From a virus: DNA of 23,724 nt. A model generated the notes under the pieces. The model saw only the letters and a list, made by a program, of their open reading frames with translations. It made no database searches and had not been told where the DNA came from. Where the stretch lies: positions 1 to 23,724 of IMG/VR virus record IMGVR_UViG_3300000956_000050; one strand, 5' to 3'. The position numbers were made by a program, and so were the translations under genes. Positions 6,199-11,673 of this stretch are shown here, piece after piece; position 1 is the first letter of the stretch, and each line of letters begins with the position of its first letter.

Positions 6199-6515
6199 CA
6201 GCAAAGCACCTGATAATCAACGCCGACTTTAACCGGCTCATCCACTGTCAAAAACAGACAAACCCTATCCACTGCCTCTTTGCTATCCAGCCAAACCACT
6301 TCGGCGCCTGCAGCACGCCGACGCTCGTGGTCGCGCACCTGAGCTTCGGTAGGCTTTTCGCCGGTCGCTTTTAGCTCAACGAACAACACGCGACCGCCGA
6401 ACGTGATCAACCGATCAGGGACCGAACGTCGCTGGGGGCTGGTGAACTTGTCGCAAAGCGCGCCAATCTCTTTGCAGCGCTTGACGAGGTACGCTTCGAT
6501 ATCGCGTTCTAGCAT
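6198..6515 (-). CDS. VRR-NUC domain nuclease
   Basis: A 105-residue single-domain PD-(D/E)XK nuclease. Catalytic signature residues are visible: Glu near the N-terminus (MLERDIE), VPDR (Asp34), FVELK (Glu47, Lys49) and Gln59 in TEAQVRDH. VRR-NUC proteins are structure-specific nucleases, and stand-alone phage versions usually sit beside an SNF2 helicase, as here. I chose the ATG at 6515 because GGAG lies eight bases upstream; the open frame extends to 6578 but that part overlaps the previous gene. The start overlaps the preceding stop (ATGCTAG), and the stop overlaps the helicase start by one base. Confidence 0.9.
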   Translation of the reverse strand: MLERDIEAYLVKRCKEIGALCDKFTSPQRRSVPDRLITFGGRVLFVELKATGEKPTEAQVRDHERRRAAGAEVVWLDSKEAVDRVCLFLTVDEPVKVGVDYQVLC

Positions 6516-6946
6516 GGCATCAGCTCCGATGGGACTTTCACAATTGATCCGGACTTCGCGGATACAACAGCCCGACACATGGCGATAAGCAGGGAATCGC
6601 CACGTCCTTCATATCTTCCGGAATCGTGACCTAGCTTCACTGACCAACCGCGATACACCTCTGGGTCGGAGTTATACCAGTGCTCTAATTTTTCTATGCT
6701 GATATTTCTCACGACCTTATTGTTCTGAATTTTCATGCCCTCTAGCTTGGCTAGGATAGGGCCTCCAATTTCCCAATCTTCATCGGGCCAATATGCGCCG
6801 TGGTTATCGGTCCAAATGTTGCGGAACGATCCGTCTTCGTTAAAGCACCAGCGCAGTTCGTCACCAAGCCCATCTGCGACGGCTACTGCGTAACGCAACG
6901 CTGGTCCGATCAACTCTGCTGTTTTAACTTCTACAAATTCGCTCAT
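6509..6946 (-). CDS. NinX-like (DUF2591) phage protein
   Basis: A 145-residue protein resembling the P22 NinX/DUF2591 family: KTAELIGPALRYAVA near the N-terminus, an aromatic YWPDEDWEIGGPIL motif in the middle and a C-terminal SLLIAMCRAVVSAKSG block. The function of the family is unknown; members lie in early or nin-type regions. A good ribosome binding site (GGGAGAG) precedes the ATG. It follows the polymerase C-half by 52 bases and overlaps the VRR-NUC start. Confidence 0.8.
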   Translation of the reverse strand: MSEFVEVKTAELIGPALRYAVAVADGLGDELRWCFNEDGSFRNIWTDNHGAYWPDEDWEIGGPILAKLEGMKIQNNKVVRNISIEKLEHWYNSDPEVYRGWSVKLGHDSGRYEGRGDSLLIAMCRAVVSAKSGSIVKVPSELMPC

Positions 6947-6998
6947 GTGTCGGCTCTCCCGTATTTGTACGCAAGCTTATGCAAGATTCGACTTGTAG

Positions 6999-8903
6999 TC
7001 AACCTTTCCGGTAGCGATACGCTTCGAAGCCGGCGGCGGCGAGCGGTAGGCCTTCTGTCCAGTCGCAACCCGCAGACATGAGTTCGGCCAGGTGTTCATG
7101 CGTGTACTCGTCGGTGTCCGGCGCTTCGCTGATGATCTCGTCGTGTACCGTCAGCACGATCTCGTAACCGGCCTTCTCGATATCCGGCATGCGATACGCC
7201 AACACATCCCGTGCACTGGCCTGACAGCAGTTGTGGACGATAAGCGGCAAGCCGTCCGACCCTCTCACAACAAACCGAGAGCGGGGTCCGCAATTGACAA
7301 GGTCGAAGACCCTACGGGTATCAGCGCCTGTTCTACTGGCCATTCGTGATCCAATCGGTACATCAGCGTGGTGTACCCGACTCCGTAGAACTCCGAGGCT
7401 TCCATGAGCGTCATCTTTCCGTGAGGAGTTTCCAACCAGTGATTGCGGCGAGTGTTGTTGGCTTGGTGCTTCGCAGTTCGCCAGTCGCAGTTCGCCTTGA
7501 AATACCCCAAAGAGTTGTCCAAGCGCTCCAAGGTCAGCCCCGGTTTGTATCTGTCGCCCATGTCTTCCCAGAAGTTTTCGAACTTCTCCCGCCATCGTTC
7601 GCAGACGGCGATGCCCCTCGCACCATAGTTTTTGTACGCCTGATGTGTAGGCAGACGGCAGCGATCGTTCATAGACCGCCATACCCAATACGCCGGATGA
7701 CTCGTCATGCCGTGCCGGGTGTTCCTCTTGCCTATCGTCGCCTTGCGCATGCATCCGCACGACGAGACGTTGCCGCGTTTGCTCTGCTTCTTTAGCTCCG
7801 AAGGGTCCATAAGAATTACCTTGCCGCAGTCGCAGGCCACTTCCCATAACGACTTCTTGCCGTCCGACCCCTGGTATCGAATAGCCGTCAGGTAACCGAC
7901 ACGCAGCCCGGTTATGTCCTTCGCACGATGATGCATTACGCCAACCCTCTTCGGTCAAAACCAAATGATCCGGCGTCATTTGAACGCCGTAGGTTGTAAG
8001 TGTAGTTTGTTTACCGCTGTAATGACAATGCGAAAAGGATACCCATTCGTCGCCGTCCCAAACGCGCGTGTCCGGCGTTACGCGCTCAATAGCCCGCCAT
8101 CCGAATTTTTCCGTCAGGACTTCAGTACCTTCGGCGATGCAGTTTTCCGCCAGCTTCCCGGAATATGTGCGCAGCCTTTCCCATTTGCGGCTGTACTGGT
8201 TGATGCCCATGTACGTGATCTGACCGTCATCCTCGACACGCGGAGACGGGTAGCAGAGATAACGGCCGCTAGGCAGCATAACGCGCAGCCAAGCGCCGTC
8301 ACGGCGGATCTTGTGGCGACGGCACGTCAGCGTTTGGCCCGGGTTGTTGATCGCGTTGCGGCAAGCGTTCTCCAGATCCTTCCAGTAGGTTACGGTCTGC
8401 GGATGTGCTTCGCGCCAAAGTCGCTTAAAAGCTTCGCATACGATGAACGCCGAATCGCTAAGCCCGTATTGACTTTTGCCTTTGCTCAATTGCCATTCGA
8501 GGAAATCTTTAGCCTCGCGCAAAGTGTTGTCCGGAATGGCGTTGATCGCCTTATCGGCCATGGCTTCCAGGTCGATGTTAAAGGCGAGCGAGAAGGTGAT
8601 GAATGCGCCGACGCCACCGGCGTAACCCAAGGCGAGTTCCATTGTCTTGCCTATCTGCCGCATGTCGCCGTCCACGTCGGCAGGATCAATGCCGAACGCT
8701 TTCGCGTAGGCGAGTTTGTAAAGGTCGAACCCTTCACCGGCGTCGAAGTCGCGGAACGCTTGAAGCTTCCACTCCTCTCCGGCCAGCCACGCGAGCTTAC
8801 GCCCTTCGATGTTTGATAGGTCAGCTACGACCAGCTTCTTACCCTTGGGCGCAATCACGCAGCCTCGCGTGGCACTGCTGCAGGCTTCCATAACGGTGGT
8901 CAT
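6999..8903 (-). CDS. DNA polymerase I family, C-terminal (palm/fingers) half with intein
   Basis: This 634-codon ORF encodes the catalytic half of a family A DNA polymerase interrupted by an intein. Motif A is VVADLSNIEGR (Asp28, metal ligand), motif B is MRQIGKTMELALGYAGG (Arg82, Lys86, Tyr94) and motif C is VLTVHDEI (HDE, about residues 587-589). The intein occupies residues 255-558, between LAEN and CCQASARDVL, in the conserved segment between motifs B and C. Splicing would leave about 330 residues. There is no exonuclease domain; that and the thumb lie in a separate gene at 9822-10892, so together they would give about 686 residues, a normal length. The ATG is coupled to the methyltransferase-like gene (GTATGACC). 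Activity presumably needs protein splicing and assembly of two chains, which is inference. Confidence 0.92.
   Translation of the reverse strand: MTTVMEACSSATRGCVIAPKGKKLVVADLSNIEGRKLAWLAGEEWKLQAFRDFDAGEGFDLYKLAYAKAFGIDPADVDGDMRQIGKTMELALGYAGGVGAFITFSLAFNIDLEAMADKAINAIPDNTLREAKDFLEWQLSKGKSQYGLSDSAFIVCEAFKRLWREAHPQTVTYWKDLENACRNAINNPGQTLTCRRHKIRRDGAWLRVMLPSGRYLCYPSPRVEDDGQITYMGINQYSRKWERLRTYSGKLAENCIAEGTEVLTEKFGWRAIERVTPDTRVWDGDEWVSFSHCHYSGKQTTLTTYGVQMTPDHLVLTEEGWRNASSCEGHNRAACRLPDGYSIPGVGRQEVVMGSGLRLRQGNSYGPFGAKEAEQTRQRLVVRMHAQGDDRQEEHPARHDESSGVLGMAVYERSLPSAYTSGVQKLWCEGHRRLRTMAGEVRKLLGRHGRQIQTGADLGALGQLFGVFQGELRLANCEAPSQQHSPQSLVGNSSRKDDAHGSLGVLRSRVHHADVPIGSRMASRTGADTRRVFDLVNCGPRSRFVVRGSDGLPLIVHNCCQASARDVLAYRMPDIEKAGYEIVLTVHDEIISEAPDTDEYTHEHLAELMSAGCDWTEGLPLAAAGFEAYRYRKG
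7230..8141 (-). other. Intein in the DNA polymerase gene (304 codons)
   Basis: Block A is CIAEGTEVL, starting at Cys255 of the ORF. Block B is GVQMTPDHLVL, with the expected Thr310 and His313. Block F is RVFDLVNCGPRSRFVV (about 531-546), and the C-terminal splice site is LIVHN followed by Cys559, with the penultimate His and final Asn in place. All residues needed for standard cysteine-type splicing are visible. No LAGLIDADG or in-frame HNH domain is present: the region between blocks B and F in this frame is rich in Gly, Ser, Arg and Gln and looks unstructured. A separate HNH gene occupies that region in another frame. Confidence 0.9.
7265..7936 (-). CDS. HNH homing endonuclease nested out of frame inside the intein
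   Basis: A 223-residue HNH endonuclease encoded on the polymerase strand in the +1 frame, overlapping polymerase codons 323 to 546. N-terminal zinc-type cysteines are C35/C37 and C60/C62 (CDCG, SCGC). A THGM-like RHGM motif, VWRSMNDRC, NYGARGIAVCERW, LERLDNSLGY and NCDWRTAKHQANN (residues 149-161) make up the HNH nuclease core of this phage family. Residues 175-205 (MTLMEASEFYGV...) form a small HTH-like DNA-binding module usual for its C-terminus. AGAGG about nine bases before the ATG gives an internal translation start whose bases also encode intein block B residues. Family members cut DNA at intein-less or intron-less alleles; here the target would be the polymerase gene without the intein. 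Confidence 0.88.
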   Translation of the reverse strand: MHHRAKDITGLRVGYLTAIRYQGSDGKKSLWEVACDCGKVILMDPSELKKQSKRGNVSSCGCMRKATIGKRNTRHGMTSHPAYWVWRSMNDRCRLPTHQAYKNYGARGIAVCERWREKFENFWEDMGDRYKPGLTLERLDNSLGYFKANCDWRTAKHQANNTRRNHWLETPHGKMTLMEASEFYGVGYTTLMYRLDHEWPVEQALIPVGSSTLSIADPALGLL

Positions 8904-9610
8904 ACGAGATCCCTTAAATGCGGAGCATTGGCTTGGAAGTTGGCGATGCTAAAACCTCTCGGCGTAGCACTTCGAATGTTCTTCGTGCGCGTCGACTTAC
9001 CTCCGCATTTCTTCCACCCGGGATTGTCTTTGTACAGAGGTTCAAGCCGCATGAAAGGAGGTTTCCGATATCCTGGACCCTTCCAGATACCCGTCTTCTT
9101 GTTGTAGGCGTCCCGTGGCGGGTAAATTTGAGGATAAAGCGGGTGCTCATCATTAGCCGGCAAATACCGCCCGTAGTCACAGGGGTTGAACCAGAAGTCA
9201 GGCTTGCGCCACAGAGAAGACAGCAGACCTACAGGGTTCTCCGCAGCCCAGCAATCGCAACCCGTGGCCTCAGCTACTGCGGGAGCTAGTTTCGCGAGAG
9301 TCGACGCTTCAATTAGGAAATTTGGATTTTCCGCGTGTTTCCTCGCCCAGCTACCTGAGCCGGCATTTGTCATATCGGTGCATTCTGGGAAGGAGAAAAT
9401 GTGAACAACACCCGGGCCGACCATTTTGGCGATGTCGGCTGCGTGCTCTTCGATCTTGTCGTGGTAGAACCACATCCCGACCTTGACTAGGTTGCCTTCG
9501 CGGGTAATACCTTCCGGGTGCTGCCCGTCGAAAAGCCAGCATTCGTACCCTGCATCAAGCCACGGTTGGGCCATAAGGCCCGTGTAGTCGTAGAGGAAAA
9601 GCGCTTTCAT
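8900..9610 (-). CDS. DNA methyltransferase-like protein between polymerase halves
   Basis: A 236-residue protein resembling a phage group distantly related to cytosine-5 DNA methyltransferases. The N-terminus LFLYDYTGLMAQPWLDAGY fits a motif I SAM-binding loop followed by an acidic FDGQH segment. FSFPECTDM (near residue 95) is in the place of the PPCQ catalytic loop, with a Cys present but the usual Pro-Cys order changed. AENPVGLLSSLW matches the ENP motif IV region, and TPRGFSIANFQAN matches the C-terminal family motif. It ends in DLV-stop with GTATGA, coupled to the polymerase C-half. Real methylation activity is uncertain; a modified-nucleotide enzyme is possible. Confidence 0.65.
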   Translation of the reverse strand: MKALFLYDYTGLMAQPWLDAGYECWLFDGQHPEGITREGNLVKVGMWFYHDKIEEHAADIAKMVGPGVVHIFSFPECTDMTNAGSGSWARKHAENPNFLIEASTLAKLAPAVAEATGCDCWAAENPVGLLSSLWRKPDFWFNPCDYGRYLPANDEHPLYPQIYPPRDAYNKKTGIWKGPGYRKPPFMRLEPLYKDNPGWKKCGGKSTRTKNIRSATPRGFSIANFQANAPHLRDLV

Positions 9611-9825
9611 CGCATAGTCCCAAAATAGTTGAAGACGCGCCGCAGGCAGTAAGACCGGATAAAGCTGATCGCCGTATAGATGATCGTAATGGCAATGTTC
9701 TGGCTTAAAGAAGGCTCGAAGCCGAACAGTGGGAATATCAGATGGTTGGCGATAATCGAAATCACTAGACCTACGGCGATATTAACGAAAGCTTCAAACG
9801 CTGATCCTTTACGAGACTGACTCAT
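9607..9825 (-). CDS. Small two-TM membrane protein (DUF7220-like)
   Basis: A 72-residue protein with two hydrophobic segments (about 13-33 and 43-58) and positively charged ends (SQSRKG, SYCLRRVF). The pattern SQSRKGSAFEAFVN, FPLFGF and AISFIRSYCLRR matches a small widespread phage/prophage membrane protein family, DUF7220, of unknown function. Start and stop overlap both neighbours as ATGA. With the methyltransferase-like gene it forms the cassette that separates the two polymerase pieces. Confidence 0.75.
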   Translation of the reverse strand: MSQSRKGSAFEAFVNIAVGLVISIIANHLIFPLFGFEPSLSQNIAITIIYTAISFIRSYCLRRVFNYFGTMR

Positions 9826-9837
9826 ACCAAATCCTCG
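9821..9837 (-). repeat. 17-bp repeat at polymerase/cassette junction (copy 1)
   Basis: Reading leftward, CGAGGATTTGGTATGAG covers the last codons of the polymerase N-half (EDLV, stop) and the start of the next gene. The identical 17 bases occur at 16139-16155. A related 3' boundary sequence, GGGATCTCGTATGA, lies at the other end of the inserted cassette (about 8900-8913). Confidence 0.75.
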
Positions 9838-10892
9838 GCATCATTTTTTAAAGCCTCAATCCACAGTTCAATTTCTTTGTTCTTGATCGTAGGACGGGCA
9901 AGATTCTGCGGCTGCCATAGGCGACCCGCCCACCGCCCCGTGCGCAACGCACCACAGAACGCGAGAAGCCCCCGCAGCCTGCCGTCGGCGCTAACTCCAT
10001 TCAGAGCGCGTTTATACTTGCTGACAGACGTTTTGCTGGCCTGCGCGCGCACCACAAGAAGCTCTTTGAGCTCCCAAGGCAAATCCTCGTCCGCCAAAGC
10101 CTTTTCGATAGTGCTCCCTTTCATATCGGCCAGGGCGATGCCGTATTCTGCGAGGATGTGCTCAAGCATCCGATCTCGTTGGTTGGCACTGGTCACGGCG
10201 CCATCCGTCATTTCGTTGGCCTGACGCGACAGTTCCTTCTGCGCACGGTCTGAGGCGCGAATGGCGGCGTGCGCCAAGTCGAGATCCATCAGCACACCGC
10301 GCTCGTTAATACGCTGGTCGAGGTGCCACAGTTCCTTCTCCTCGCCTCGGTAATTCCACCGGGGCAGCTTCTTGTAAATCTCACGCATGGCCTCGATGTC
10401 GAGACGCCCGTACTCACGAAACGCTTCCCACTCGGCAGGATGTGTTTCGTGAGTAGCGCGCCGGAGTATCTGATTCTTCGGGCGCGGCTTGCAGAACAAC
10501 TGGATCAGAGCCTTGCCGGCCTTGTCCTTCGCCTTGTCCTTCGCGATCCCGAGGATATCCCCTAGCTTTTCCAAAGCGCCCGGCAACGAGTGCGCCATCG
10601 CGCACACCATCGTGTCGAATACTCGGCCCACAGGAAGAGCAATCCCGTTATGGGCCATGACCGTGCGATCAAACGCCGAATTGTGGATAACCACTTCATA
10701 TTCTTCATCCTCAAGCAACGCTAGCAAGTCGCTGATGTCTTCATCACCATCACGAATGATCACAGGCCCATCGCCGACCGCCCACTGCCACATGATGATC
10801 TCGGCGCCTTCTGCATAACGGTGCGTCCCGTTGTTGAGGGGCGTTTCGCAGAAGGTTTCCGTGTCGAGGAAAATGCATTTAGACAGATCCAT
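9822..10892 (-). CDS. DNA polymerase I family, N-terminal half (3'-5' exonuclease and thumb)
   Basis: A 356-residue protein with the proofreading exonuclease motifs in order: ExoI FLDTET (Asp10, Glu12), ExoII IHNSAFD (Asn71, Asp75) and ExoIII YGRLD (near residues 161-165). A helical thumb region follows, then LRTGRWAG with PQNLARP near residues 317-335, the first conserved polymerase-domain motif. It stops at EDLV, just before the point where an intact polymerase would continue to motif A, which is encoded at the start of the gene at 8903. The chain therefore lacks palm and fingers and cannot polymerise alone; it could proofread or pair with the C-half. It starts inside the end of the zinc-finger gene (14-base overlap). 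Confidence 0.92.
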   Translation of the reverse strand: MDLSKCIFLDTETFCETPLNNGTHRYAEGAEIIMWQWAVGDGPVIIRDGDEDISDLLALLEDEEYEVVIHNSAFDRTVMAHNGIALPVGRVFDTMVCAMAHSLPGALEKLGDILGIAKDKAKDKAGKALIQLFCKPRPKNQILRRATHETHPAEWEAFREYGRLDIEAMREIYKKLPRWNYRGEEKELWHLDQRINERGVLMDLDLAHAAIRASDRAQKELSRQANEMTDGAVTSANQRDRMLEHILAEYGIALADMKGSTIEKALADEDLPWELKELLVVRAQASKTSVSKYKRALNGVSADGRLRGLLAFCGALRTGRWAGRLWQPQNLARPTIKNKEIELWIEALKNDAEDLV

Positions 10893-11193
10893 GGTTCGCC
10901 TTATTCTTTTTGAGTCGGCACGACCTGCACCACGCGCCGCAGCCGGACGCCCGGTCCTGATCCGCCCAGTATTGTTCCAGCTCCCTGGCCGTACCGCAGA
11001 GGTTGCAGCGCTTAGCCAAGATGCCGCCGATGTTGATCATCTGCCCGGCTTGAAACCTGTCGACGTCCGTCACAGGGAACATGGTTCGGAGGGTGCAAAG
11101 GCGCATCCCGTACAATCGGGCCAGCCAACGCCGACTGCCGAGCCTGTACATGTGAAACTGCAGTTCAGCTAGCGGAATTTGCGGCCTTGACAT
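10879..11193 (-). CDS. Zinc-finger protein, 104 aa
   Basis: The ATG at 11193 is preferred over a TTG nine bases upstream because GGAGG lies ten bases before it. The C-terminal part has two Cys pairs, CNLCG and CGAWCRSC, separated by about 20 residues, a four-Cys zinc ribbon common in small phage proteins, followed by a basic tail (RLKKNKAN). The N-terminal half has a hydrophobic RWLARLYGMRL stretch. Placed immediately before the polymerase, it could be a DNA- or RNA-binding accessory factor; the specific role is unknown. Confidence 0.72.
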   Translation of the reverse strand: MSRPQIPLAELQFHMYRLGSRRWLARLYGMRLCTLRTMFPVTDVDRFQAGQMINIGGILAKRCNLCGTARELEQYWADQDRASGCGAWCRSCRLKKNKANHGSV

Positions 11194-11482
11194 AATTCTC
11201 AAGCCTCCTTGGATCGATTCCAGTGATACGGCCGAGTTCTTTCCACGTGGCGCCGGCCGCTTTCAGCCGCTTCATGCGCGCCAGTTGGAAATCAGAGAGC
11301 AGCCCCTTCGGTTTACGCGTTGGCGACTGATAGCGCGAGTCGCGATCTATGCCGGCTTTCGCCAAGGCGCGACGGACTAGGTGCAGCGTAGTACCGCACT
11401 TATCGGCCACTTCGTGCCACGGGAGCCCGGCGCCGCGCAAGCGCACTGCCAAGTCGGTGTCAACGGATACGAGGCTTGTCAT
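11165..11482 (-). CDS. Protein with two predicted helix-turn-helix segments, 105 aa
   Basis: Two segments have the spacing and residues of HTH motifs: LPWHEVADKCGTTLHLVRRAL (about 20-40) and ATWKELGRITGIDPRRLENYV (about 78-98). The repeated 'W.E.....G.....R' pattern suggests a duplicated DNA-binding unit. It may be a regulator or a small replication factor. The start overlaps the previous stop as ATGA and the stop lies 29 bases inside the zinc-finger gene. Confidence 0.7.
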   Translation of the reverse strand: MTSLVSVDTDLAVRLRGAGLPWHEVADKCGTTLHLVRRALAKAGIDRDSRYQSPTRKPKGLLSDFQLARMKRLKAAGATWKELGRITGIDPRRLENYVKAANSAS

Positions 11483-11673
11483 TGCACGACTCCTTCAATC
11501 GGCGAACCGACGACCGCGTTACCCTTCAGATCGTCAAGCAACGCCTGTGCGTGCTCGTCCGAGACCGCGTAGAAGTAAGCGCTGAACTTGCCGTCGACAG
11601 TATTGAACTCGATCGGATATAGGCGCCAGGTTATGCCAGCTACGACCGGCGAGAGGTTTAGGGAAAGGCTCAC
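11479..11673 (-). CDS. Hypothetical protein, 64 aa
   Basis: A GTG start overlaps the previous stop (GTGA) and the stop overlaps the next start (ATGA). The protein alternates short hydrophobic strands (GITWRLYPIEF, FSAYFYAV) with a helical SDEHAQALLDDLKG segment. I do not recognise a family. The coupled overlaps argue that it is translated. Confidence 0.65.
   Translation of the reverse strand: MSLSLNLSPVVAGITWRLYPIEFNTVDGKFSAYFYAVSDEHAQALLDDLKGNAVVGSPIEGVVQ

Follow-up and report, generated by a model that had tools for sequence, protein, structure and literature searches.

An HNH endonuclease gene nested out of frame within a predicted phage DNA polymerase intein

The polymerase locus and its two reading frames

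The window, the whole stretch of viral DNA analysed here, comprises 23,724 nucleotides (IMG/VR record IMGVR_UViG_3300000956_000050). Its minus strand encodes a phage family-A DNA polymerase in a frame that, on translation, runs uninterrupted from 8903 to 6999 (634 codons). Residues 255–558 of this product constitute an intein of 304 residues, in which Cys255 is residue 1 and the terminal His-Asn is followed by Cys. In the +1 frame relative to the polymerase and intein, the same strand carries a complete ORF of 223 amino acids, with an ATG start and a TGA stop, for an HNH endonuclease. This second gene lies between intein blocks B and F, as do the endonuclease domains of conventional inteins. 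The features are as follows.

8142..8903, minus strand: N-terminal extein, the polymerase ORF up to ...SGKLAEN (translation; Pfam DNA_pol_A, 1.1e-12)
7230..8141, minus strand: intein, 304 residues, Cys1 to His-Asn (sequence, alignment, profile, fold model)
8103..8141, minus strand: intein block A with Cys1 (sequence; C1 invariant in 63 inteins)
7953..7991, minus strand: intein block B with TPDH at 7965-7976 (sequence; T56 and H59 invariant)
7946..7949, minus strand: Shine-Dalgarno-like GAGG ahead of the HNH ATG (duplex energy -6.3 kcal/mol)
7265..7936, minus strand: nested HNH endonuclease gene, 223 amino acids, +1 frame (PHROG HNH endonuclease, 1.6e-55)
7314..7936, minus strand: dual-coded stretch, predicted disordered intein linker in the polymerase frame and most of the HNH protein in the other
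7260..7313, minus strand: intein block F, including the HNH stop codon at 7265-7267 (sequence)
7227..7253, minus strand: intein block G (LIVHN) and the +1 Cys at 7227-7229 (N304 invariant, H303 and C305 nearly so)
6999..7229, minus strand: C-terminal extein of the polymerase (translation; PHROG DNA polymerase)
9822..10892, minus strand: separate ORF for the exonuclease portion of this split polymerase (Pfam DNA_pol_A_exo1, 2.1e-8)

A first-pass annotation of this DNA had claimed intact splice blocks (Cys255, TPDH, and HN followed by Cys), a complete HNH gene with its own ATG, a polymerase frame free of stops across that gene, and an HNH end overlapping block F. All four claims held. Its further claim, that the bases of the ribosome binding site also encode block B, failed: the GAGG lies in Glu-Gly codons just past the block.

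The sequence features of a cis-splicing intein are all present, namely Cys1, a TxxH motif in block B, a C-terminal His-Asn, and Cys at the +1 position. In an alignment of 63 inteins, Cys1, T56 and H59 of block B, and N304 are invariant, and H303 and C305 (the +1 Cys) nearly so. The Hint fold is supported for the window intein by three lines of evidence. The intein profile matches the solved inteins NEQ068 and PI-MtuI at about 6e-6; the AlphaFold model has a pLDDT of about 97 for residues 1–80 and about 280–305, and under 50 across most of the linker; and the top Foldseek matches of the model in the PDB are the RecA, DnaB, DnaX, and DnaE inteins. A Pfam search with the single intein sequence gave no intein match, a result superseded by the profile and the structure. 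The window contains a complete intein, modeled with a confident intein fold that a disordered linker interrupts. Splicing of the polymerase is inferred; there has been no experiment.

The HNH protein matches three HNH families in addition to the PHROG family listed above. Its profile match to I-HmuI (1u3e) is weak (E 0.034), and a Foldseek search with its model gave no significant fold match in the PDB, so that similarity to PHROG families is what supports the HNH label.

Some observations concern the neighboring junction. In the window and its relatives, separate ORFs encode the exonuclease and polymerase parts of the split enzyme; in five relatives (L010, L013, L015, L016, L020) the two abut, with the stop and start overlapping in GTATGA. 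Exactly at this junction an extra gene is found in the window (8900-9822, minus strand) and in L002, L008, L009, L012, L014, L018, L019, L022, and L062. These genes vary, being methyltransferase-like or HNH-like (an assignment made by eye except for the window) and 526-1154 bases long, and they often end in DLV and a stop codon, like the upstream ORF. That of the window matches phrog_757, DNA methyltransferase. The junction looks like a slot for cargo genes within a split gene whose parts are coupled.

Maintenance of both frames in related genes

With the polymerase and the HNH protein as queries, about 270 loci were gathered, among which profiles of the N-terminal and C-terminal intein halves were used to find HNH relatives flanked by an intein. 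Both halves flank 70 distinct HNH relatives. In all 70 the phase offset is that of the window and the intein frame is open from half to half; in none of these 70 loci is the HNH gene in frame with the intein. The 70 relatives and the window together form family I (n=71). HNH relatives without a surrounding intein (104) served as controls, and 100 of these free-standing genes entered the stop statistics.

A chance opening of the intein frame is ruled out by synonymous shuffling of the HNH codons, from which the expected numbers of stops were derived. For the window alone, the intein frame contains 0 stops against 5.8 expected, and none of 300 shuffles was free of stops. Over the 71 nested genes the count is 0 against 442 expected, whereas the third frame, with 820 stops against 770 expected, shows no avoidance. 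The equivalent frame of the 100 free-standing relatives has 1737 stops (1850 expected), and not one of these genes is stop-free. The same avoidance is visible at single bases. A T at a fourfold-degenerate third position of an HNH codon followed by AA, AG, or GA would create a stop in the intein frame; such a T occurs at 0 of 1348 positions in nested genes vs 563 of 2276 in free-standing controls.

The HNH frame is the better conserved of the two, with 67% identity vs 40% for the linker, and divergence at its codon positions 1, 2, and 3 is 0.27, 0.22, and 0.51 among the 71 members. Beyond stop avoidance, the linker gave no convincing signal of amino-acid constraint: the BLOSUM excess is 0.12 +/- 0.05 in nested genes and 0.09 +/- 0.10 in free-standing ones.

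An in-frame start codon is present in 71/71 nested genes (ATG in 48, GTG in 22, TTG in 1), near the conserved N-terminus of the family, and most of these starts have a Shine-Dalgarno-like site. The mean Shine-Dalgarno energy is -6.9 kcal/mol at the HNH starts vs -3.3 at internal NTG codons. Since the start of each gene was taken as the best-scoring candidate, there is a mild bias favoring this result. In one subgroup (L090-L093, L099) the HNH start lies further upstream, and an ATG accompanies it. HNH translation and cleavage of a target are inferences without experiment.

The arrangement is not peculiar to family I. A polymerase intein at another site is found in the Salmonella SETP3-like phages, Sodalis SO-1, and Pseudomonas MR14 (group II); here the HNH gene is in the opposite phase to family I, and 11 sequences have 0 stops against 55 expected. 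A third insertion site is used in Streptococcus Javan255-like and Gardnerella phages (group III), where 26 sequences have 0 stops against 307 expected. In Gardnerella phage AB1, of this group, AAAGGAGGT lies eight bases ahead of the ATG, within the intein coding sequence. In the HNH tree the nested family-I genes form nearly one group, with groups II and III apart on long branches. The existence of two phases implies at least two origins of nesting.

The double reading is therefore not limited to the phage of the window and extends to more than 100 related phage genes. Comparison of the two frames across homologues, the check proposed in the first-pass annotation, found the intein frame open in 71/71 family-I members, and the two other lineages are alike. 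The case that would have refuted the proposal, stops in the intein frame with an intact HNH gene, was not found among the homologues compared. The reverse, a shortened HNH gene within an open intein frame, is seen in a small number of group III members: L329 and L331 have lost most of the HNH gene, and the short intein is still open. Such shortening fits endonuclease loss in a homing cycle. In one group II record (L287) a frameshift, possibly a sequencing error, disrupts both frames.

Insertion sites and signs of transfer

The insertion is precise and in phase within a conserved host protein, and intein-less alleles exist. In three relatives with flanks 82-94% identical (L008, L011, L062), the empty site reads AAC|GTG vs AAC|intein|TGC in the window, so that the +1 Cys of the window intein is replaced by Val. 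Between the window and L002 the inteins are 82% identical and the flanks 72-75%. The insertion sites comprise two positions in the polymerase, separated by nine bases, three or more in SNF2 helicases, and one terminase-like gene. The window phage has a helicase gene of its own (around 5343) without an insertion at the site that is occupied by such an intein in L156, whose C-terminal part is 96% identical. The HNH tree groups by insertion site, with 15 changes vs 66 when shuffled; this clustering could partly reflect shared descent. The distribution is sporadic, empty sites occur, and there are signs of horizontal transfer; homing itself is inferred from sequence alone.

Two further observations touch on these sites. 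L160 (3299-4189) has a nested intein in an apparent large terminase gene, judged by extein sequence only, and in L152, L163, L181, and L206 two inteins are apparent in a single polymerase or helicase gene.

Interpretation and relation to known systems

The best explanation, and a very likely one, is a mini-intein that splices in cis and has its homing endonuclease encoded by a separate, overlapping gene. Sequence shows the two frames and their joint maintenance, the intein fold, empty sites, signs of horizontal transfer, and starts accompanied by Shine-Dalgarno-like sequences; splicing, HNH translation, cleavage, and homing are inferred. In this scheme two genes share one strand. The polymerase frame would encode a mini-intein whose blocks A-B and F-G fold as one splicing domain, excise themselves, and join the two parts of the polymerase. 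The roughly 200 residues between the halves would be a disordered linker with a sole detectable sequence requirement, the absence of stop codons. Read one base later, the same DNA would be an independent HNH endonuclease gene with its own start just past block B and its stop inside block F. Polymerase genes lacking the intein would be cleaved by the HNH protein at the insertion site or close to it, and the ensuing repair would copy in the whole intein together with its nested gene. The general reading of the first-pass annotation, an out-of-frame HNH gene inside a polymerase intein, is thus supported. Its suggestion that splicing and homing could be controlled separately goes further, and independent control of the two products has not been shown.

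A bolder reading, which seems likely, gives inteins three general routes to a homing endonuclease of their own: in-frame fusion, split or fractured genes, and, as the third, out-of-frame nesting. This last would have arisen at least twice, as the two phases indicate, in hosts that include polymerase, SNF2 helicase, and probably terminase; splicing and homing would be separately expressed and lost; and the arrangement would have been overlooked because a frame mismatch was taken to exclude inteins.

Of the alternatives, the one that survives best, though unlikely, accepts the intein and the nested gene and denies that the HNH protein is the homing enzyme: it might be a passenger with another target, or inactive. 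Cleavage data are lacking, and some group III members retain the intein with a shortened HNH gene. Against this, HNH clades track the insertion site, HNH coding is conserved in 71 members, and the sporadic distribution, empty sites, and signs of horizontal transfer point to mobility.

Two further alternatives are very unlikely. The insertion might remain in the polymerase as a tolerated loop without splicing, as proposed for the ShiLan methylase insertion, an out-of-frame HNH gene in an open insertion that lacks splicing motifs (PMC11855218). Such a loop would not explain the invariance of the catalytic intein residues, an intein fold modeled at pLDDT ~97, the +1 Cys where empty relatives carry Val, or the location within conserved polymerase sequence. 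Alternatively, the HNH protein might not be initiated at its own start but arise from the polymerase frame by ribosomal frameshifting, as its one fixed phase within family I would allow. This is countered by the start codon in every family-I gene, mostly with a Shine-Dalgarno-like sequence, by the joint upstream position of start and ATG in one subgroup, and by the other phase of group II.

A self-splicing RNA intron carrying an HNH gene, as stated in the SO-1 record for gp38/gp39 ("type I self-splicing intron") and in keeping with the frequency of HNH genes in group I introns, is all but excluded by an insertion that is codon-exact, open, and equipped with intein catalytic residues, and by the lack of any Rfam intron match in window positions 6500-11500 or nine related loci; group I and group II introns were rejected on the latter ground.

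Single members of the class have already been annotated. The GenBank records of APSE-1 (P45/P46), of the same family as the window, and of SO-1 (gp38/gp39), of group II, both list an HNH ORF that overlaps the polymerase ORF. For P46 the record gives a shorter protein beginning at an internal start, and the SO-1 pair is labeled a type I intron; these are individual annotations, and no class of overlapping inteins is described. The intron note at L115 (NC_013600 gp38/gp39), where no Rfam intron match was found, probably misnames an intein. An intein, but no HNH gene, is marked in the annotation of several Salmonella phage polymerases.

In the literature searched, no description of an intein with an overlapping endonuclease gene was found, and out-of-frame HNH genes in phage appear only in the ShiLan work and in a genome announcement (PMC12613952), in both cases in methylases. 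An earlier description is possible in a preprint on non-canonical intein architecture (Gosselin et al. 2025) cited there. The Felix O1 genome paper used an HNH frame mismatch to exclude inteins (PMC3185647); given the nested class, the customary rule that HNH in another frame excludes an intein would discard real cases.

The nested genes would represent a widespread class of mobile intein in which one DNA segment specifies two unrelated proteins under joint constraint, and they offer natural, highly conserved overlapping gene pairs for the study of dual coding. Separate regulation of splicing and homing, and the way in which endonucleases join inteins in evolution, become open to test. Mini-inteins with permissive linkers are also possible protein-splicing tools.

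Comparison with known systems sets the window apart from each. The ShiLan domain of mycobacteriophage methylases, the nearest published parallel, shares with it an HNH gene hidden out of frame, an insertion open in the host gene, sporadic spread, and proposed translation of the second frame. Its authors found neither an intein or intron splicing domain nor a ribosome binding site (PMC11855218), whereas the HNH gene of the window is surrounded by a complete intein and Shine-Dalgarno-like sites are present; the ShiLan type was rejected for this locus on account of that intein. Conventional large inteins, such as PI-SceI, have the same blocks A, B, F, and G, with the homing endonuclease likewise placed between B and F. 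In them the endonuclease is part of the intein protein, whereas the HNH protein here would be the separate product of another frame, and this assignment was rejected since none of the 70 loci is in frame. In fractured genes, reportedly, a free-standing endonuclease gene separates the two halves of a split intein (Dassa et al. 2009). They resemble the window in that the endonuclease gene is separate from the splicing domain and lies between its halves. In fractured genes, however, the host gene and its intein are divided between two ORFs whose products splice in trans, whereas the intein frame is uninterrupted in the window and open in all 70 other family-I loci, and the split-intein assignment was rejected on that basis.
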